Shown here piece by piece: positions 1,230 to 15,080 of a stretch of DNA of 64,000 nt. A program made the position numbers and the translations under genes. Within the stretch, counting starts at the first letter, position 1, and each line of letters begins with the position of its first letter. Under the pieces are notes generated by a model. That model worked only from the letters and a program-made list of their open reading frames with translations, was not told the DNA's origin and made no database searches. Source of the DNA: Kiloniella laminariae DSM 19542 (GTDB lineage: Bacteria; Pseudomonadota; Alphaproteobacteria; Kiloniellales; Kiloniellaceae); NCBI RefSeq assembly GCF_000374005.1, contig NZ_KB893134.1:115730-179729 (forward strand). The letters are read 5' to 3'.

Positions 1230-2165
1230 CTATTTTGCAGCTGAGGCCTGGGTCAAGCGATGCAATACATCATCAAGCTGCTCCAGGGTGTCATAGGCGA
1301 TCTTCAGGGAGCCACCCTGCCCGTGGAAATCGATAGAAACAGTCAAACCCAACATATTGGAGAGATCCCTCTCCAGAGCCAACGTATCAGCATCCTTGTC
1401 AGCCCCCGGCGCTGAACGGGGTTTGATCGAACCGGCAATGCTTTTCTGCGCCGGAGCCGCTGTGGGGCCAGAAAGCTCTTTTTTCAGCGCCCTGGCCAAA
1501 CGCTCGGTCTCGCGGACAGAAAGCCCACGCGATGTAATCTGTTCCGCCAGATGGGTCGGATCATCCGCGCCAACGAGAGCTCTGGCATGGCCAGCACTCA
1601 GATCTCCCTTCTCGAGCAGCTCCTGGACATCTTCGGGAAGCGTAAGCAAACGAAGCATATTGGCAATATGACTACGGCTTTTGCCAATGATCTTGGCCAC
1701 ATCATCCTGCTTATGACCAAACTCATCCATCAGACGACGATAGCTGGTGGCTTCTTCTATCGGTGTAAGGTCCTGGCGCTGAACGTTCTCGATAATCGCG
1801 ACCTGGAGAACTTCCGCGTCGTTAAAATCCCGGATAACCACTGGAACTTCATGCAGCTTAGCCTGCTGTGAAGCCCGCCAGCGGCGCTCCCCCGCAACAA
1901 TTTCGTATTCGGCATTATGGACAGGGTGCCGACGCACCAGAATCGGCTGTAACAAACCCGATTGGGCAATGGATTCGGCCAGAGACGTCAGCGCATCCGC
2001 ATCAAAATGGCGACGCGGCTGCTTGGCATTGGGGTGAATATGCTCAATCGGCACCTGTTTGGTTGAACGTACCTTATCAAGCGATGCGTAATCTTCTGTC
2101 TCATCACCAAAAAGAGCAGCAAGTCCGCGGCCAAGATTAGTCCGTTTTTCCTGTTGATCCACCAA
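1230..2165 (-). CDS. parB: Chromosome-partitioning protein ParB
   Basis: The 311-residue ParB/Spo0J homologue is a CTP-dependent DNA clamp that loads at parS and segregates the origin with ParA. Visible are the N-terminal LGRGLAALFG motif that engages ParA (residues 11-20), the CTP-binding GERRWRAS motif (92-99), ENVQR (126-130), a helix-turn-helix around 152-173 (KQDDVAKIIGKSRSHIANML) and a C-terminal dimerisation segment. The start is TTG with GAGGG 7 bases upstream; a GTG follows at once. It lies 91 bp downstream of parA in the same operon. Its likely targets, parS sites, are found at 3389, 3689, 5785 and 7816. Confidence 0.97.
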   Translation of the reverse strand: MVDQQEKRTNLGRGLAALFGDETEDYASLDKVRSTKQVPIEHIHPNAKQPRRHFDADALTSLAESIAQSGLLQPILVRRHPVHNAEYEIVAGERRWRASQQAKLHEVPVVIRDFNDAEVLQVAIIENVQRQDLTPIEEATSYRRLMDEFGHKQDDVAKIIGKSRSHIANMLRLLTLPEDVQELLEKGDLSAGHARALVGADDPTHLAEQITSRGLSVRETERLARALKKELSGPTAAPAQKSIAGSIKPRSAPGADKDADTLALERDLSNMLGLTVSIDFHGQGGSLKIAYDTLEQLDDVLHRLTQASAAK

Positions 2166-2256: not shown

Positions 2257-3087
2257 TCAGGCAACCGCAGCTTCAGCTGCCCGTTCCTTTTTGAGAATTT
2301 CTCCTGCCAGTTTGATATAGGCCTGTGAACCGGCACAGGCAACATCATAGAGCAAGACCGGTTTGCCGTGAGATGGTGCTTCAGAAACCCGGACGTTCCG
2401 CGGAATCACCGTGGTAAATACCTTTTCACCCAAAAAAGCACGAACATCAGCAGCGACCATTTCACACAAATTGTTGCGGCGATCATACATAGTCAACACA
2501 ACGCCTTGAATCTCCAACCGACGATTCAGCCCCCTCTTCACCCGGTCAATCGTCCGGAGAAGATGAGACAAACCTTCGAGGGCATAAAACTCGGTCTGCA
2601 GGGGAACCAGAACAGCATCGGAAGCAACCAGGGCATTCAGAGTCAACAAACCAAGAGCTGGAGGACAGTCGATCAGGATATAGTCAAAAATATCCAGAAG
2701 AGGACCAATAGCATTGGCCAGGCGGAACTCCCGCTCCGATGCATTGACCAGCTCCAGCTCCGCGCCAGAAAGTTCTACCCCGGATGTGATCACATGCATC
2801 CTGGGTACATCCGTTGAATGTATCGCCTGCTGTATCGGCAAACCTTCAATCATGACCTGATAGATGCTCTGCTTTCGCGCATCGACCTTCACGCCAAGCC
2901 CGGTACTGGCATTCCCCTGAGGGTCGAGATCAATGATCAGGACCTTCTTTTTACAGGCAGCCAAAGCCGTTGCCAGATTGACGGTCGTCGTGGTTTTACC
3001 CACGCCACCCTTCTGGTTTGCAATGGCCCAGATTTTAGCTTTGGTAATTTTCTGTCCTGAAATTGAGTCCATATCTAGTAGTGACAC
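2257..3087 (-). CDS. parA: Chromosome-partitioning ATPase ParA
   Basis: This is a Walker-type ParA ATPase. The deviant Walker A KGGVGKTTTT lies near residue 26, followed by the DLDPQGNAS and DCPPALGLLTLNA motifs. It binds nucleoid DNA when ATP-bound and moves ParB-parS complexes. The frame is open back to a TTG at 3102, but a GTG at 3087 has GGGGGGA six bases upstream and is preferred, giving 276 residues; an ATG at 3072 is a third option. It sits 16 bp after rsmG and upstream of parB, so rsmG-parA-parB are probably co-transcribed. Confidence 0.96.
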   Translation of the reverse strand: MSLLDMDSISGQKITKAKIWAIANQKGGVGKTTTTVNLATALAACKKKVLIIDLDPQGNASTGLGVKVDARKQSIYQVMIEGLPIQQAIHSTDVPRMHVITSGVELSGAELELVNASEREFRLANAIGPLLDIFDYILIDCPPALGLLTLNALVASDAVLVPLQTEFYALEGLSHLLRTIDRVKRGLNRRLEIQGVVLTMYDRRNNLCEMVAADVRAFLGEKVFTTVIPRNVRVSEAPSHGKPVLLYDVACAGSQAYIKLAGEILKKERAAEAAVA

Positions 3088-3103
3088 GGTCAATCCCCCC
3101 AAT

Positions 3104-3781
3104 TTATAGAAGTTTGAGGCGTAATATCGTTGCTTCTGAATCAGACAAAGATTTGTACCTCGACAAAGACATACTCCACTTTTTCTCCGCTTCGGTCAAT
3201 TCCTGATCCACGGACCTCCCCTTCAACAAAAGGAATTCTGGAGGGGTTTCACGCGAAGAAACCTCGATAAAGGGTTGAGCAAAATCGATAATCTTATCAA
3301 GTGATGCAAAAGCCCGCGCCGTAAAAAAATTCACCGCAAACGGGGTGATTTTTTCAATACGCTGATTATGGACTGTTAGAGGTGTATTTGTTTCACGTGA
3401 AACTTCGCGGAGGAAAGTAGATTTTTTAATATCAGATTCCATAGCATGGACATCCCCTACTCCAAGGATAGCCAACACTATTGCTGGAAAACCAGCACCA
3501 CTGCCAAAATCTACAATTACCGGCTTTGAGTTATTCTCTTGAGATGAAATTTTAGGAAAATACTGTGCTAACTGCGCTGAATCCAGAAAATGACGACGCC
3601 AGAGATCTGATATTGTGTCCCGGCCAACAAGGTTGATCGCTTTGTTCCATTTTACCAACAGGTCAGCATAACATTTCAACTTGTCTTCTGTTTCACGTGA
3701 AACAGGAACAAGCTTTTTAAAATCCTCAAATCCAAATTTCTCGGACTTAAAATTTTCGGACTTAAAATTTTCAGGCGACAT
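3104..3781 (-). CDS. rsmG: 16S rRNA (guanine527-N7)-methyltransferase RsmG
   Basis: RsmG (GidB) methylates N7 of G527 in 16S rRNA. The SAM-binding [15 protein letters not shown] motif and LLKG are visible in the 225-residue product. The N-terminus is odd: before the conserved [14 protein letters not shown] region there is an extension carrying a tandem FKSEN repeat, produced by a 15 bp DNA repeat. Two exact parS sites lie inside the gene and are read as Val-Ser-Arg-Glu-Thr, so partition sites are embedded in codons. The start overlaps the end of mnmG by 11 bp, indicating translational coupling. Confidence 0.95.
3389..3404. promoter_or_regulatory. parS: parS site 1, inside rsmG
   Basis: The core GTTTCACGTGAAAC at 3390-3403 is a perfect 14 bp palindrome and matches the bacterial parS core. 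It lies within the rsmG reading frame, where it encodes VSRET. ParB encoded at 1230-2165 is the expected ligand. Confidence 0.93.
3689..3704. promoter_or_regulatory. parS: parS site 2, inside rsmG
   Basis: TGTTTCACGTGAAACA is an exact match to the 16 bp parS consensus and is fully palindromic. It also encodes VSRET, near the RsmG N-terminus, exactly 300 bp from site 1. Confidence 0.95.
3737..3775 (-). repeat. 15 bp tandem repeat at the 5' end of rsmG
   Basis: About two and a half copies of a 15 bp unit (TCGGACTTAAAATTT on the plus strand) lie in the first codons of rsmG. They translate as FKSEN-type pentapeptides, so copy-number change would keep the frame. The last copy sits only a few bases before the mnmG stop codon. 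Confidence 0.8.
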
Positions 3782-5639
3782 CAGAACTATCCATACGTCT
3801 TACATATTTCAGGAGGGCAACAATCGCAGCCGGAGTGACCCCAGAAATTCTGGCTGCCGCCCCCAGTGTCTCAGGACGAGACTGTGTCAGCTTCTGTATA
3901 ATTTCTGTAGAGAGGCTTGGCACCGAGGCATAGTCAAAATCACGCGGCAACTTTAAAGCCTCATCTTTACGAAAAGCCCTGATATCCGCATCCTGTCTTT
4001 CAATGTATCCAGCATAACTGGCGTCAATTTCAAGCTGTTCAATAACAGCCGGATCATAGCTGGATAATTCAGGCCAGATCACAGACAAACGTGCAAGCGT
4101 AACATCGGGATAGCGAAGCAGATCAAAAACGCTGCGACGCTGACCATCCATATTAACTGTTATGCCATGAGTTTTAAGCTGGTTTGGTGTTGCCGCATTT
4201 GTCTCGGCAAAGCGGCGTGCTTCGGTAAGCTTGTTTTTCTTTTCTGCAAATATCTGTTGTCGCTCAGAACCGATACAGCCAATAGAATTACCGATATCTG
4301 TCAAACGCTGATCGGCGTTATCTGCACGAAGTTTTAATCTGTATTCTGCCCTGCTCGTAAACATGCGATAAGGTTCTGAGACACCGAGACTAACCAGATC
4401 ATCAATCATCACCCCCATATAGGCATCAGCCCGGTCAAGAACAAATTCCCTTTCAGCACCTGATGCTTTAAGAGCGGCATTGATCCCGGCAAGAAGCCCC
4501 TGCGCGCCCGCCTCTTCATATCCGGTTGTTCCATTAATCTGTCCGGCAAAAAACAGTCCCGGAATTTTCAGAGTTTCCAGCGTTGGTCTAAGCTCACGAG
4601 GGTCAACATAATCATATTCGATGGCATAACCCGGTTGAAGGATTACAGCCTTTTCCAAACCCGGTATTGTTTTCAAAAATGCTGCCTGGACATCTTCAGG
4701 CAAAGAAGTCGAAATCCCGTTAGGATAGACGTTGATATCATCCAGCCCTTCCGGTTCAAGAAAGATCTGATGTCGCTCCCGCTCTTCAAAACGAACAACC
4801 TTGTCTTCAATTGAAGGGCAATACCTTGGCCCTTTACTGGCAATCTGTCCGGAATACATCGGGGACTGAAGAATATTTGCCTTGATCACGGCATGGGTTT
4901 GCGGATTGGTATAGGTAATATGGCAGGGAATCTGAGTTTGACTGATAGATTTATTCAAATAGGAAAAGGGTTCCGGCGGCGTATCCCCGGCTTGAACCTC
5001 CAGGGAAGAATAATCAATAGTCCGGGTATCAAGCCTGGCTGGTGTGCCGGTTTTCAAACGCCCGAGGGTGAAACCAAATCGTTCCAGGGTTGCAGAAAGT
5101 CCGAGAGCAGGTTCATCCCCTACCCTTCCTGCCGGAATCTGTTTTGTTCCAAGGTGAATAAGGCCGCGTAAAAAAGTACCTGTTGTCAACACGACCGAGC
5201 CAGAACGATAAACCGTTCCGTCAGCAGTGATTACCCCGCAACAGTGATTATTATTATCCAGCTGAAGATCTTCGACCGCAGCCTCGATAATTGTCAAATT
5301 TGATTGCTCGGCGAGCAGCTCCTGTATCGCAAGTCGATAGAGCTTTCTGTCAGCCTGGGCACGGGGTCCCCGGACCGCAGGACCCTTGCTCCGGTTCAAA
5401 ACCCTGAATTGAATCCCGCCACGGTCAATTGCCTTGCCCATTAATCCGTCCAGAGCATCAATCTCGCGAACAAGATGACCCTTTCCCAACCCGCCAATAG
5501 CCGGATTACAGGACATAACACCGATCGTCGATTTTTTATGTGTGAGAAGCAGTGTTCTCGCCCCGGTCCGGGCAGCAGAGGCAGCGGCCTCGGTACCGGC
5601 ATGGCCACCGCCAACAACAATCACATCATAGTTCTGCAT
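3771..5639 (-). CDS. mnmG: tRNA uridine-5-carboxymethylaminomethyl modification enzyme MnmG
   Basis: The 622-residue FAD enzyme (GidA) works with MnmE to build the cmnm5 group on wobble U34 of certain tRNAs. The N-terminal dinucleotide-binding motif [19 protein letters not shown] (about residues 8-26) and the conserved [21 protein letters not shown] and [12 protein letters not shown] segments are present; the C-terminal helical domain ends normally. Length is typical. It overlaps rsmG by 11 bp at its 3' end and starts 208 bp downstream of mnmE across a spacer that holds a parS site. Confidence 0.97.
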
Positions 5640-5784
5640 AACAGATCACTTTTCATAGAGCGTTTATTACCAGGTAAAGTAGGGCAAGAGACAAGGTCAT
5701 CATCTGAACTGGTTTACAGTTCCAGGGTAACTTCAGGTTGGTCTCTTAAGTAGCTGACTCGCCGAACATTTATTTAACAGCTCA

Positions 5785-5800
5785 TGTTTCACGTGAAACA
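5785..5800. promoter_or_regulatory. parS: parS site 3, between mnmE and mnmG
   Basis: TGTTTCACGTGAAACA is an exact 16 bp parS palindrome in the intergenic spacer upstream of mnmG. ParB loading here could also affect mnmG transcription; that is an inference. Confidence 0.95.
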
Positions 5801-5847
5801 TCAAAGGCCGAGTCAGATAATGTCCCCAGCTTTTAAGCCATTCTGAC

Positions 5848-7206
5848 TTATTTTCCAATACAAAAATCACGGAAAATTACATCCAGAAGATCCTCAACAT
5901 CAACTTTCCCCGTAATTCTGCCAAGATGACGTGTTGCCAGTCTTAAGTCTTCGGCTGACAATTCCGGTAAGGGTGCGAGAAGACTGCGCGAAAGGGCATC
6001 GGAAGTATCGATTAAAGACTTGCGATGACGTTCTCTGGTTATTCCCACAGAAGCCCCTGCGCTACCAAGCTTTGTCACAACTTCATCGGTAAGACGTTTG
6101 ATAAGTTCATCAATACCGGTTCCGGTTTTGGCAGATATTTTCCGGACTTCAAAGTCGGATAATTCCGCCACAAGATCCGGGTTTTTATCATCTGGCTTAT
6201 CCGTTTTGTTCAAAACGACAAGACCGTCACCGCGCTCAAGGAGACGAAGTGTTTCCGGGTCAAGCTGTTGGCTTGCCGCAAGATCAAAAACGGCCAGTCT
6301 GAAATCAGCGGCCTCGGCTCGTAACCTTGCCCGACGCATGCCTTCGAGCTCGATATTATTATCACTGGCCTCTTCAAGCTCTCTTAGACCAGCTGTGTCT
6401 GCCAGAGTTACCGGATAACCCGCAAGATCAAGGTGAACCTCAATCACGTCTCTGGTCGTCCCTGCAATATCGGAAACAATGGCAACTTCCCGACGCGCCA
6501 GAGCATTCAACAAAGAAGATTTTCCAGCATTCGGTGGGCCAATAATGGCAATTGAAAAACCATCTCTCAGCCTTTCAAAGCGATGACCATCATCCAAATG
6601 TTGATTGATTTCTGACTGTAATCTCAAAATATTGTTTTTAACCTGCTCGGAAATCCCCTCTTCCAGTTCTTCGTCCGGAAAATCTATTTCCGCTTCCAGG
6701 TAAGCAAGTGTCCGGACAAGCTTTTCTCTCCAGCTTCCGATCAGGCGGGAAAGTTCCCCATCCATCTGCCGGATAGCCTGTTTTCGCTGGGCTTCAGTCT
6801 CAGCTGCAATAAGGTCGGAAAGTCCCTCGACCTCGGTCAGATCAAGCTTGTCATTGGCAAAAGCACGCCGGGTAAATTCTCCGGCCTCTGCCGGACGAAA
6901 CTCCGGGAGTTTAGCCAAGCCTGAGATCGCTCCATTGACCACAGCCCTGCCCCCATGAAGATGGAGTTCAACAACATCCTCGCCCGTAAAGCTCGCTGGT
7001 GCAGGAAACCACAAGGCAAGGCAGCGATCAATTTCTGAAGCATCTTCCGGGTCAGCCAGCTTTACCAGACTGGCCGTACGCGGTTCGGGTTGCCGGGAGG
7101 TCATCTTGTTCCAGATCATCCCTGCATTCCTGCCTGAAATCCTGATAACAGCAACTCCTGCCTGGCCCGGCGCAGTTGAAAGGGCATAAATCGTATCTGA
7201 TGCCAT
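5848..7206 (-). CDS. mnmE: tRNA modification GTPase MnmE
   Basis: The 452-residue product is the GTPase partner of MnmG. Visible are the N-terminal formyl-THF-binding part beginning SDTIYALSTAPGQAGVAVIR, the G domain with Walker A GPPNAGKSS, the AGTTRD switch, DTAGLRE and NKTD, and the C-terminal FCIGK whose cysteine is characteristic of the family. The frame is open a further 27 codons upstream, but the ATG at 7206 gives the canonical N-terminus and is preceded by AGGA. mnmE, mnmG, rsmG, parA and parB all read leftward in this order, as in many proteobacteria. Confidence 0.97.
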   Translation of the reverse strand: MASDTIYALSTAPGQAGVAVIRISGRNAGMIWNKMTSRQPEPRTASLVKLADPEDASEIDRCLALWFPAPASFTGEDVVELHLHGGRAVVNGAISGLAKLPEFRPAEAGEFTRRAFANDKLDLTEVEGLSDLIAAETEAQRKQAIRQMDGELSRLIGSWREKLVRTLAYLEAEIDFPDEELEEGISEQVKNNILRLQSEINQHLDDGHRFERLRDGFSIAIIGPPNAGKSSLLNALARREVAIVSDIAGTTRDVIEVHLDLAGYPVTLADTAGLRELEEASDNNIELEGMRRARLRAEAADFRLAVFDLAASQQLDPETLRLLERGDGLVVLNKTDKPDDKNPDLVAELSDFEVRKISAKTGTGIDELIKRLTDEVVTKLGSAGASVGITRERHRKSLIDTSDALSRSLLAPLPELSAEDLRLATRHLGRITGKVDVEDLLDVIFRDFCIGK

Positions 7207-7341
7207 AATGATTAGAATTCCTATAATCCAGACAGGGGCACCATAGGCAAAGGGACTGAAACCGTCAAAGTACTTTCCTTGCGACAAAAACCGTCAGATC
7301 TGCTGCTGTAGCAAGCAGTTCTCCCAGTACCTCGCAAGAGA

Positions 7342-7650
7342 TTATGTTTTATCTTTGGAAGTCTTGTTATCCCCGGCTTGGGCAAACTGGGACCAAAACA
7401 TTTTTTGCATCTGTTCAAGACCCGGGATCGCATCAGGCATGGCACCCGGCATGGCACCGGGCATACCAGCTGGCATTGTCAACGGCATCCAGGCTTTCAT
7501 AAGGCTTTCCGGATCGGATTTTTGAATAGCATCAAGCATGCGTTTGCGAATTTCAGACATAGCCTCTTCTTGAAGAGCGGTAACGTCCGGCAACCCGAGA
7601 AACCTGCGTGCTTCTTCTGGAGTACAGTCAACGTCTACTGTGAATTTCAC
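7342..7650 (-). CDS. DUF6489 family protein
   Basis: A small acidic protein of 102 residues starting VKFTVDVDCTPEEARRFLGL, a pattern I recognise from an alphaproteobacterial family of unknown function (DUF6489). The middle carries a Met-Pro-Gly-Ala tetrapeptide repeat (GMPGAMPGAMPDAIPG) and the end QMQKMFWSQF is also typical. The start is set to a GTG at 7650 with GGGGAG seven bases upstream; the longer open frame to 7725 has no support. It reads toward mnmE, 135 bp away. No membrane segment or enzymatic motif is seen; function unknown. Confidence 0.8.
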   Translation of the reverse strand: MKFTVDVDCTPEEARRFLGLPDVTALQEEAMSEIRKRMLDAIQKSDPESLMKAWMPLTMPAGMPGAMPGAMPDAIPGLEQMQKMFWSQFAQAGDNKTSKDKT

Positions 7651-7815
7651 CAGAATTCTCCCCGTTTTTTTCAGACAAAATCCAGACGGCAGAAACCATA
7701 TGGATTGTTCACCCGAATGATACATGAGCCATCCCGGAACAACGACCTAAAAGCTGTTGTAAGTTCAAAAATCATCCAGAGGTCTTTGCCAAATCAAGAA
7801 AAGTTGTTTCGAAAT

Positions 7816-7831
7816 TGTTTCCCGTGAAACA
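7816..7831. promoter_or_regulatory. parS: parS-like site 4 (one mismatch)
   Basis: TGTTTCCCGTGAAACA differs from the parS consensus by a single base in the centre (A to C). It lies in the spacer between the PAP2 phosphatase gene and the DUF6489 gene, about 2 kb from parS site 3. It is likely a weaker ParB site. Confidence 0.7.
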
Positions 7832-7900: not shown

Positions 7901-8695
7901 TCACGGCCAATTTTGAACCAGCCTTGCGAATATTCCCAGTTTAAACAAGCGAGCGACCGACCCACGGATAACAGCCAGCAAAGGTGTATATACCGTCCAG
8001 GAGTAAATGAAGAGAGACAATAAGGTTCCGCCAATCCAGATATCTCCGAACCAGTGACCGCCTCCAACCATACGCGGTGTTGCATTGACCAGACAGAACA
8101 GAAACAGGACCAACCCGTAGCTGCGACCAAAAAGACGGCCCATTACTAAAAAACAGATAAAAGAAACGGCTGCATGATCACTGGGAAAAGATTTTCTTGT
8201 TCCGGTTTTTACCTCAATCCAACTGACAAGCTCGTTTATATCGGTAAAGGGTGACACAAGCTGTGAAGGACTGGGATGATGATAATCATTAAATCCCCGT
8301 GCAATAACCAGCATGACCAAAGCAACAGAAATAACCACCAAAATTACCCTGGAGAACCTTTCTCCAAAACTGTTTTCCCGGTTTTTGACAAGATAAAACA
8401 AACAACATCCGCCAAGAAAAACAGCGCTGAGACTATCAAATATCCGGCTATTGGTAAAAGCCCAGTAATTGTTCCAAACGTCCCTTCCCTCTTGAAGCGA
8501 TCCGTTTAAAAACAGGAAAACAGCTTCATCCCAAGGGGTTTTAAAATCATATTCTGCCAGAAGGAAAACCGCAGTAATAACCAGGAAATTACAAACCAGA
8601 AGCCACCCAAGATTCCACTCAGAATTCCACCCATGATTCTGTCTTGGATTCTGCCCTGGATTCTGCCCGGTAATGTTACTGTTATTTTTGTTCAC
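7901..8695 (-). CDS. PAP2-family membrane phosphatase
   Basis: The product (about 264 residues) is a multi-pass membrane protein with several hydrophobic helices. It carries the PAP2 phosphatase motifs: KSFPSDHAAVSF (the PSGH-type motif with Asp for Gly) and, further on, TPRMVGGGHWFGDIWIGG with the catalytic Arg, His and Asp. Such enzymes dephosphorylate lipid phosphates such as undecaprenyl pyrophosphate or phosphatidate in the inner membrane; the substrate here is unknown. A GTG start at 8695 with AAGGA seven bases upstream is preferred to a TTG at 8740. The N-terminus holds an unusual Gly-Gln-Asn-Pro repeat encoded by a 12 bp minisatellite. Confidence 0.85.
   Translation of the reverse strand: MNKNNSNITGQNPGQNPRQNHGWNSEWNLGWLLVCNFLVITAVFLLAEYDFKTPWDEAVFLFLNGSLQEGRDVWNNYWAFTNSRIFDSLSAVFLGGCCLFYLVKNRENSFGERFSRVILVVISVALVMLVIARGFNDYHHPSPSQLVSPFTDINELVSWIEVKTGTRKSFPSDHAAVSFICFLVMGRLFGRSYGLVLFLFCLVNATPRMVGGGHWFGDIWIGGTLLSLFIYSWTVYTPLLAVIRGSVARLFKLGIFARLVQNWP
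8609..8668 (-). repeat. Five 12 bp tandem repeats in the PAP2 gene
   Basis: Five contiguous 12 bp units occupy this stretch. The last two are identical (TGGATTCTGCCC) and the others diverge progressively. On the minus strand they encode tetrapeptides of the GQNP type ahead of the first membrane helix, so unit gain or loss would stay in frame. Confidence 0.85.
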
Positions 8696-12593: not shown

Positions 12594-13625
12594 TTATCCG
12601 CGAATGCGTTTGAGCATCTGTTCAACATGCTCGATTGGTGTTTGTGGCAGAATGCCATGTCCCAGGTTGAAAATAAAGGGACCATCGGTAAAGGCAGAGA
12701 GAATGCTGTCAATCGATTGATCGAGCATGCTGCCGCCTGCAACCAGTAACAGGGGATCGAGGTTGCCCTGGACTGTTACGTGGGACTGGATGTTGTCTCT
12801 GGCCCAGAGGGGAGAAAGAGTTGTGTCGAGACCAAGAGCGTCTGCGCCGCTTTCTCTGGCAAAAAGCGGATAGCTGTCTCCGACGCCCCGTGGAAAGAGA
12901 ATAACCGGGACATCGGGATAAACCGCCTTAATGCCGGAAATGATCTTTTTGCAAGGCTCGAGACACCAGCGTTTCAGGGCAAATTCTGGCCAGACACCGG
13001 CCCAGGAATCAAAAATCTGGACTGTTTCAGCCCCACTTTCAATCTGTTTGATCAGATAAAGCGTTGTTGCCTCGACTACAAGATCGATGATGCGGTCAAA
13101 CTCCAGCGGATTTGAATAGGCCCAGGTTTTGGCCTTGGCATAATCCTTGGAGGAGCCGCCCTCGATCATATAACTGACCACTGTCCAGGGAGCACCGGCA
13201 AAGCCGATCAATGTGGTTTCCTTTGGCAGATCTTCGCGCAGGCGACCAAGGGTTTCGTATACTGGGGAGAGATGGCTGTGGAGATTGTCCAGGGTTAGTT
13301 TCTCGAGATCAGCGATCGACTGGAGGGGCTGAAGTTTGGGACCGACCCCCTCCTCAAACCAGACTTTTTGACCCAGAGCGTGAGGGATGACCAGAATGTC
13401 ACTGAAAACAATCGAGGCATCAAATCCGAAACGGCGGATCGGCTGCAGGGTTACCTCAACTGCTAGATCGGGGCTGTAGCAGAGATCGAGAAAACCGTCA
13501 GCACTGGCGCGTGTCTTGCGATATTCGGGAAGAAACCGGCCTGCCTGACGCATAAGCCACACGGGTGTGCGTTCGGTTTTCTCCCCCTTCAGGGCACGGA
13601 TCATGAGCTTGTTTTCGGTTTTCAC
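12594..13625 (-). CDS. hemE: Uroporphyrinogen decarboxylase
   Basis: HemE decarboxylates the four acetate side chains of uroporphyrinogen III to give coproporphyrinogen III. The N-terminal signature RTPVWLMRQAGRFLPEYR and the mid-protein GFAGAPWTVVSYMIEGG are present; 343 residues is the family length. The gene reads away from oriC, and the adjacency of hemE to the origin is conserved across many alphaproteobacteria. It is followed by hemJ. Confidence 0.96.
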   Translation of the reverse strand: MKTENKLMIRALKGEKTERTPVWLMRQAGRFLPEYRKTRASADGFLDLCYSPDLAVEVTLQPIRRFGFDASIVFSDILVIPHALGQKVWFEEGVGPKLQPLQSIADLEKLTLDNLHSHLSPVYETLGRLREDLPKETTLIGFAGAPWTVVSYMIEGGSSKDYAKAKTWAYSNPLEFDRIIDLVVEATTLYLIKQIESGAETVQIFDSWAGVWPEFALKRWCLEPCKKIISGIKAVYPDVPVILFPRGVGDSYPLFARESGADALGLDTTLSPLWARDNIQSHVTVQGNLDPLLLVAGGSMLDQSIDSILSAFTDGPFIFNLGHGILPQTPIEHVEQMLKRIRG

Positions 13626-13639
13626 GGTCTTATTGAACC

Positions 13640-14160
13640 TCGCGCTTTGGGTTATCTCTCATACTATACTTAGTAATAGTAATTATTTGTAGTTGTTGTA
13701 GATCCCTGTGAGTCACGGGGATTAGTCACTTATTCATAACTTGTCCGCAAGCTTCAAGGCCTCGTTTGATCAATTTCGTTTTTCTGTGAGTCTCTTTCGG
13801 GATCTTTTCGAGCGACTCGTCAGGACTCACGGAGTCATATTCATCCACAAGATTAGGTGAATCATGGGGATAACTTTTTTCTTGCCGGAGTCCTTGTACA
13901 AGTTTTGCACAGCTGTGGGTATTGCTGCGAATTGTCGCATAAAGCGAGGTATCATCAGGGGGACAGCGTGTGTAGAAAAGCCGGCTGGGGATAAAAGGGG
14001 ATAGTTATCCACAAAGTTTTCACCTTCGTCCGCAGCTTTATGCACATAAGATATTGATCCTCCTGATGATCTGCCTGTTGCTTCACTGATATGATTTTCG
14101 GGTTTGCTTCACTGGTTTGATTCTTGGACTTCGTTCTCTGGTTTAGATTTCTCTGTTTAA
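13640..14160. other. oriC: Chromosomal replication origin (oriC)
   Basis: This gene-free stretch lies between divergently read hemE and ppsR. DnaA boxes seen: TTATCCACA (14005-14013, perfect), TTATGCACA (14038-14046), TTTTGCACA (13903-13911), TCATCCACA (13841-13849), and two minus-strand copies of TTATCCCCA (13865-13873 and 13986-13994). Six GANTC methylation sites start at 13710, 13788, 13814, 13824, 13832 and 13888. An AT-rich block at 13660-13700 may be the unwinding element. Most genes left of it read left and those right of it read right. The hemE-oriC-ppsR order matches Caulobacter Cori. dnaA itself is not adjacent, as is usual in this class. Confidence 0.9.
14078..14155. repeat. Degenerate 26 bp direct repeats at the right side of oriC
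   Basis: Units starting at 14078 and 14104 share TTGCTTCACTG followed by T-rich TGATT and TGG/CGG ends, about 20 of 24 positions identical. A weaker third copy begins near 14130. The array lies between the last DnaA box and the ppsR start. The function is unknown; it may be an accessory origin element or part of the ppsR leader. Confidence 0.55.
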
Positions 14161-14258
14161 TTTCTCTGGGTTTCCCGATTCCGCCAGAATGTGTATGTAT
14201 GATCACAAGAGAGCAAACCTTCGGGCAAACACTTTGGGTAAACAGCCGGGACCGGATA

Positions 14259-15080
14259 ATGACACAGACCCACCTGCACCTCGTTTCTGATTCGACGGGT
14301 GAAACCATCAATTCAGTTGCCCGTGCCTGCATGGTGCAGTTCAAGGTCGAGGAACCGGTCGAACATGTCTGGAGCCTGATCCGGACCAAAGGGCAGATGG
14401 AAAAGGTGCTGGTCCAGATCCGCGAGAAACCAGGTCCGGTTCTGTTTACCGTTATAAATCAGGAACTTCGCGATATCCTGATCCGCGAGTGCCGCCGTCT
14501 TGGCCTGCCGTCGATCCCGGTGCTCGACCCGGTGATCCACGCGCTGGCGAGCTATTTCAATCTCGAGATGTCAGGTAAACCCGGGCTGCAGCACGCGCTG
14601 GATTCCGAATATTTCAACCGCATCGAGGCGATGAACTTTGCCCTGAACCACGATGACGGCCAGCTGCCGCAAAATCTCAACGAGGCCGAAATTGTTATTC
14701 TGGGGGTGTCGCGGACTTCCAAGACCCCGACCTGTATCTATCTGGCTAACCGCGGTTTCAAGGCAGCAAACGTGCCGGTGGTGCCGGGCTGCCCGCTGCC
14801 GGTGGAGCTTAACAGCCTGACCAAACCCTTTGTTGTCGGGCTGACCAAAGACCCGGCCAGTCTGGTCCAGATCCGCCGTACCCGCCTGAAGATGATCTCG
14901 AACGAGGAGGAAACCGACTATGTCCACCTTGAATCGATCAAGGAAGAGGTCAAGATCGCGCGCAAGCTCTGTAACGAAAACCGCTGGCCGATCATTGACG
15001 TGACCCGGCGTTCGATCGAGGAAACCGCCGCAACCATCATCAAGTACTACCACCGCCATATCGGTATCGGCGATGAATAA
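14259..15080 (+). CDS. ppsR: Pyruvate, phosphate dikinase / PEP synthase regulatory protein (PPSR)
   Basis: The 273 residues match the DUF299 family, bifunctional kinase/phosphotransferases that switch pyruvate phosphate dikinase or PEP synthase off and on by ADP-dependent phosphorylation and Pi-dependent dephosphorylation. The N-terminus THLHLVSDSTGET and the P-loop-like GVSRTSKTPTCIYLANRG are diagnostic. The ATG at 14259 follows CGGGA; the longer frame to 14124 runs into oriC repeats and is rejected. It overlaps maf by 8 bp. A homologue flanks the origin in other alphaproteobacteria. Confidence 0.94.
   Translation: MTQTHLHLVSDSTGETINSVARACMVQFKVEEPVEHVWSLIRTKGQMEKVLVQIREKPGPVLFTVINQELRDILIRECRRLGLPSIPVLDPVIHALASYFNLEMSGKPGLQHALDSEYFNRIEAMNFALNHDDGQLPQNLNEAEIVILGVSRTSKTPTCIYLANRGFKAANVPVVPGCPLPVELNSLTKPFVVGLTKDPASLVQIRRTRLKMISNEEETDYVHLESIKEEVKIARKLCNENRWPIIDVTRRSIEETAATIIKYYHRHIGIGDE

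Follow-up and report, generated by a model that had tools for sequence, protein, structure and literature searches.

The spacer between the divergent hemE and ppsR genes of Kiloniella laminariae is, judging from its sequence and its relatives, very probably the origin at which DnaA starts replication of the main chromosome, together with its unwinding module. Comparison of such spacers across Alphaproteobacteria revealed that the probable DnaA box nearest to the DnaA-trios of this module often holds a GANTC (CcrM) site; as a sequence pattern, this composite box is reproducible. The window analyzed is a stretch of 64 kb, i.e. positions 115730-179729 of contig 1 (941 kb) of a 4.44 Mb draft genome in 38 contigs; its features are listed in Table 1.

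The chromosome origin between hemE and ppsR

The initial annotation, made from the window alone, proposed a chromosomal origin at this locus, and the position of the GC skew minimum had been named beforehand as the test that could refute it. Along positions 1-400000 of contig 1 (400 kb) the cumulative GC skew is lowest at position 124479, with a clean sign change there, 4.9 kb from the origin locus (129355-129991 of the contig). Sites similar to parS (TGTTNCACGTGNAACA, at most one mismatch) are found four times in the whole genome, all at positions 119118-123560 of contig 1 and 6-10 kb from the origin spacer, and parA-like and parB-like ORFs adjoin them. The origin boxes are also conserved across eight Kiloniella species. 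The proposed origin is strongly supported by the skew, the parS-like cluster and this conservation, while the diverging hemE and ppsR flanks, also proposed then, are confirmed by profile matches. Genes for a UPF0093 (hemJ-like) protein and for rho are situated beyond hemE, and the ppsR protein is identical in K. laminariae strain G21630-S1 and 90-92% identical in other Kiloniella and close relatives. It is hardly credible that we are dealing with a chance or plasmid-like cluster of DnaA boxes and not with the main origin: the draft consists of 38 contigs that are not ordered, so that no whole-chromosome skew curve could be drawn, which is in favor of such a cluster, but it is contradicted by the sign change of the skew, by the group of parS-like sites, by the synteny of hemE and ppsR and by conservation across the class. 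We regard the assignment as solid, and as an origin the locus is ordinary.

Table 1. Positions of features in the 64 kb window.
Feature	Position	Strand	Basis or remark
parB-like gene	1230-2165	-	named from reading the translation
parA-like gene	2257-3102	-	named from reading the translation
parS-like cluster	3389-7831 (3389-3404, 3689-3704, 5785-5800, 7816-7831)		genome's only such sites
hemE (uroporphyrinogen decarboxylase), left flank	12594-13625	-	PF01208, E=2.6e-117
Origin region (hemE-ppsR spacer, genes diverging)	13626-14258		skew, parS, box and GANTC clusters, Kiloniella conservation
DnaA-trio track, putative unwinding element CTACAACAACTACAAATAATTACTATTACTAA	13670-13701	-	trios, AT peak, conservation, profile match
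GC-rich spacer GGGAT between box and trios	13702-13706	-	Kiloniella and class comparison
Trio-proximal DnaA-box-like site TGACTCACA	13707-13715	-	holds GANTC 13710-13714
GANTC (CcrM) cluster, seven sites	13710-13892		13710, 13788, 13814, 13824, 13832, 13859, 13888
Upstream tandem DnaA-box-like site TAATCCCCG	13716-13724	-	most anchored loci have an ATCCCC[GA]-type box immediately upstream
DnaA box TTATTCATA	13730-13738	+	1 mismatch; invariant in 8 species
DnaA box TCATCCACA	13841-13849	+	found in 2 of 8 species only
DnaA box TTATCCCCA	13865-13873	-	core invariant in 8 species
DnaA box TTTTGCACA	13903-13911	+	box scan and Kiloniella comparison
DnaA box TTCTACACA	13969-13977	-	box scan and Kiloniella comparison
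DnaA box TTATCCCCA	13986-13994	-	box scan and Kiloniella comparison
Perfect DnaA box TTATCCACA	14005-14013	+	invariant in 8 species
DnaA box TTATGCACA	14038-14046	+	box scan and Kiloniella comparison
ppsR/RP001-type kinase-pyrophosphorylase, right flank	14259-15080	+	PF03618, E=2.6e-92

DnaA boxes were counted at no more than one mismatch from TTATNCACA. There are seven of them at 13841-14046 and eight at 13730-14046 (317 bp), by far the densest cluster in the window; the cluster first described thus stands, with one perfect box as reported, but its number of boxes at 13841-14046 had been given as six. The IHF consensus has only two one-mismatch sites (14047 and 14110). The stretch GCGAATTGTCGCATAA at 13927-13942 does not vary among the eight Kiloniella origins and contains the dyad GCGA-N4-TCGC, while GCGAATTGTCGC, the core of the stretch, occurs in none of the 176 other hemE-ppsR spacers surveyed; the stretch is possibly a genus-specific protein site. 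The dyad was also considered as a general origin element and rejected: it is present in eight of eight Kiloniella and was found once elsewhere compared with two occurrences in control sequences, and is therefore genus-specific at best. Between the box array and ppsR (14078-14172) there are direct repeats of 13/26 bp, degenerate and TTCACTGGTTT-like, that are not conserved in the other Kiloniella.

The probable unwinding module at the hemE end

Read on the minus strand from 13724 to 13670, the hemE end of the spacer consists of TAATCCCCG TGACTCACA GGGAT CTACAACAACTACAAATAATTACTATTACTAA, the trio part beginning with CTACAACAACTAC. On the plus strand four TAG/TAA trios are found at 13671-13682, and their run, TAGTAATAGTAA, is the only four-trio run in 64 kb; the trio polarity is 3'-GAT-5', as in the basal unwinding system (BUS). 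The trio track is situated within the AT peak (78% AT at 13660-13699), which adjoins hemE and not, as had been annotated for the AT-rich block, the main DnaA-box cluster. At least three trios of the right polarity are present no more than 16 bp from a DnaA box, with the trio taken in a relaxed form (C-N-A) and the nearest box weak. The whole stretch is nearly invariant in the eight Kiloniella origins; as trio-proximal box six of them have TGATTCACA and the two remaining ones TGACTCACA or CGACTCACA. With Kiloniella left out of its training set, a profile of the element has a single match in 400 kb, at 13724-13687 (E=1.2e-6). A BUS-type unwinding module at the hemE end is well supported by this comparison.

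The same element was sought in 184 alphaproteobacterial hemE-ppsR spacers, 125 in a first set and 59 in a later one. The anchor pattern (CAC[AG], 2-10 nt, at least three trios) takes no account of the first half of the box; it was devised after inspection of the first 125 spacers, and the later 59 are an independent set. It was found on the hemE-pointing strand in 47 spacers of the first set, compared with 2, 1 and 1 in three control orientations, and in 12 of the later set, compared with 0, 0 and 0. The profile, for which 34 of the first 125 spacers were training sequences, matches 68/125 and 17/59 spacers, always on the hemE-pointing strand, and has no matches in reversed spacer sequences; the unwinding element was in this way detected in only about half of the spacers of the class (85/184).

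The BUS mechanism is known from work on B. subtilis and six further bacteria, where tandem boxes lie at most 16 bp from the trios, the upstream box being needed for opening and the downstream one lowering the DnaA concentration required (PMC8287927). If the Kiloniella origin works in an analogous way, DnaA would gather on the right-hand box array (13841-14046), then load onto the tandem boxes TAATCCCCG and TGACTCACA, and finally extend along the trio strand, melting 13670-13701. Binding of DnaA at the trio-proximal box is assumed, as this is a weak box with two mismatches to TTATNCACA.

GANTC sites and methylation

CcrM, with 64% identity to the Caulobacter protein, and GcrA are both encoded in the genome. 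GANTC is depleted in the window as a whole, with 192 sites observed and 291 expected from dinucleotide shuffles, yet it is clustered at the origin, where the seven sites in 183 bp form the densest group both in the window and in 400 kb of contig sequence; if 192 sites are randomly placed over 64 kb, at least seven in any 183 bp have a probability of about 0.003. Clustering beyond chance was also stated in the initial annotation, with a count of six sites between 13710 and 13892 instead of seven. The sites at 13710, 13814, 13824, 13832 and 13888 are kept in all eight Kiloniella, and two of them (13710 and 13824) retain GANTC while their N drifts. Three NGACTCAC[AG] sites are present in the origin (13707-13715, 13785-13793 and 13823-13831), and in other CcrM-positive spacers the motif GANTCACA occurs 29 times, about 5-fold more often than in shuffles (5.2). 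Elsewhere in the window, at 8635-8663, three GATTC with an exact 12 bp spacing are found in a PAP2-like ORF whose N-terminal part is repetitive (GQNPRQNHGWNSEWN).

The trio-proximal box is NGANTCAC in 25 of the 59 anchored loci (22/47 in the first set and 3/12 in the later one), which belong to 11 families; ordinary DnaA boxes overlap GANTC in 14 cases out of 366. G2A3 and T5C6 of the trio-proximal box are both present in 25 loci and both absent in 27, G2A3 is alone in one and T5C6 in six. This covariation has p=8e-10 if every locus is counted and p=1e-4 if each family is entered once, families for the latter test being assigned by hand. Such covariation, together with GANTC being retained despite the drift of its N, suggests that GANTC itself is under selection. 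The N of the composite-box GANTC is T or C only.

In hemE-ppsR spacers of CcrM-positive genomes GANTC is present at 7.7/kb, compared with 1.7-3.3/kb for seven sister motifs, and at about 1.9/kb in flanking coding DNA. The idea that this enrichment tracks CcrM was not accepted, because in 25 CcrM-less spacers it fell only slightly, to 6.3/kb, and it stayed high, at 9.2/kb, in family f34 (loci L084, L106, L204, L215, L217, L220, L221 and L230), where none of the eight genomes has a CcrM match. The GANTC richness of this family could be attributed either to another GANTC methylase or to a reason independent of methylation. Composite boxes were found in 24 of 53 CcrM-positive loci and in one of six CcrM-negative loci, which are few.

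It had also been suggested at the outset that origin firing may be tied to CcrM methylation. This is only partly supported: in its favor, CcrM and GcrA are encoded, five GANTC sites are conserved and GANTC is found inside many trio-proximal boxes, but it is weakened by the CcrM-less family that is still rich in GANTC and by Caulobacter, in which the delta-ccrM strain has normal DNA content and normal control of initiation (Gonzalez et al. 2014, PMC3973325), so that methylation is at most a modulator there. By analogy with B. subtilis, where the counterpart position tunes the need for DnaA, a CcrM site inside the trio-proximal box might make the DnaA threshold for opening dependent on methylation state, which we regard as possible and somewhat doubtful. 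The effect of the methyl group would be a modest tuning or a brake after initiation, and not an on/off switch. In its full form, that the trio-proximal box of many families is a composite DnaA/CcrM site (NGANTCACA) at which hemimethylation after firing shifts the threshold for re-opening by DnaA without SeqA, the proposal is a tentative one.

The same data can be read with a true origin and a trio-proximal GANTC that has no role in methylation, NGATTCAC/NGACTCAC being a variant of a weak DnaA site and the other GANTC the usual intergenic surplus. Such a reading is nearly an even bet in our judgment. The persistence of the enrichment in CcrM-less genomes, family f34 included, and the normal initiation in delta-ccrM Caulobacter are in accordance with it, as is the restriction of N to T or C, which a preference of DnaA would give, and GANTC is in general over-represented more than 1.5-fold in alphaproteobacterial intergenic DNA (PMC3973325). 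It explains less well why GANTC overlap is rare in other boxes, why T5C6 accompanies G2A3 in 25 of 26 loci while boxes lacking G2A3 are mostly without T5C6, and why Kiloniella keep GANTC at 13710 and 13824 while N drifts.

We regard it as improbable that the hemE-pointing element is a promoter or leader of hemE, with its GANTC read by GcrA and CcrM, and not an unwinding module. The element does always point to hemE and mostly precedes its start codon by some 50-170 bp, and both proteins are encoded; however, other genomes have TTATCCACA, TTATTCACA or TGATCCACA in its place, as expected of a DnaA box, and the tandem box, GC spacer and trio track fit the BUS layout and coincide with the AT peak. 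Sequestration of the Dam/SeqA type, in which a dedicated binding protein would delay re-initiation at the hemimethylated GANTC cluster, has a similarly small likelihood. To our knowledge there is no SeqA-like reader in Alphaproteobacteria, the DNA content of delta-ccrM Caulobacter is normal and GANTC enrichment persists without CcrM; on the other hand, a methylase is present and seven of its sites are packed into 183 bp, a dense and conserved cluster beside the opener that resembles the GATC density of E. coli oriC, and hemimethylation of GANTC was proposed to limit re-initiation at A. tumefaciens ori2 (PMC11514494).

Ever since several GANTC sites were noticed in Cori, and since over-expression of CcrM reportedly led to extra chromosomes while its deletion did not, there has been debate over whether CcrM methylation acts at the origin of Alphaproteobacteria. 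The trio-proximal box is one place, resolved to the base pair, where methylation could act, and the link between methylation and the start of replication thereby becomes testable. Through the survey the opening site of hemE-type origins is also mapped across the class, independently of CtrA.

Comparison with known origins

Cori of Caulobacter crescentus is situated between hemE and an RP001-type gene and has weak DnaA boxes, and the Kiloniella origin has the same position and the same kind of boxes. Several GANTC sites are another shared feature, as they are present at the origin in Caulobacter and its close relatives (PMC3973325). A CtrA orthologue is encoded in the Kiloniella genome (69% identity), but the full CtrA site of the Caulobacter-type CtrA-controlled origin, TTAA-N7-TTAA, is absent from the whole 64 kb window, in agreement with the initial annotation, and there is only one TTAA in the hemE-ppsR spacer. 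CtrA control of the Kiloniella origin was rejected for lack of this site. With BUS of B. subtilis and other bacteria (PMC8287927) the Kiloniella module shares tandem boxes, a short GC-rich spacer and trios of the right polarity within 16 bp; unlike the described systems, its trio track mixes CAA with CTA units, its downstream box carries a GANTC methylation site and it adjoins hemE. We found no earlier description in the open literature of DnaA-trios combined with GANTC, nor of a trio element with embedded GANTC for Cori (subscription papers on Cori being outside the scope). As far as the open literature shows, the class-wide composite element is new and the type of origin is known.

The Kiloniella origin and E. 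coli oriC, which is dense in GATC, both have adenine-methylation sites clustered within and near their DnaA boxes. In E. coli these are GATC sites methylated by Dam, while Kiloniella has GANTC and CcrM and no SeqA that we know of, and Caulobacter retains control of initiation in delta-ccrM. The CcrM-linked ori2 (repABC) of Agrobacterium tumefaciens, for which hemimethylated GANTC was proposed to limit re-initiation (PMC11514494), is a RepC-dependent secondary origin, different from the probable DnaA/BUS origin of Kiloniella.
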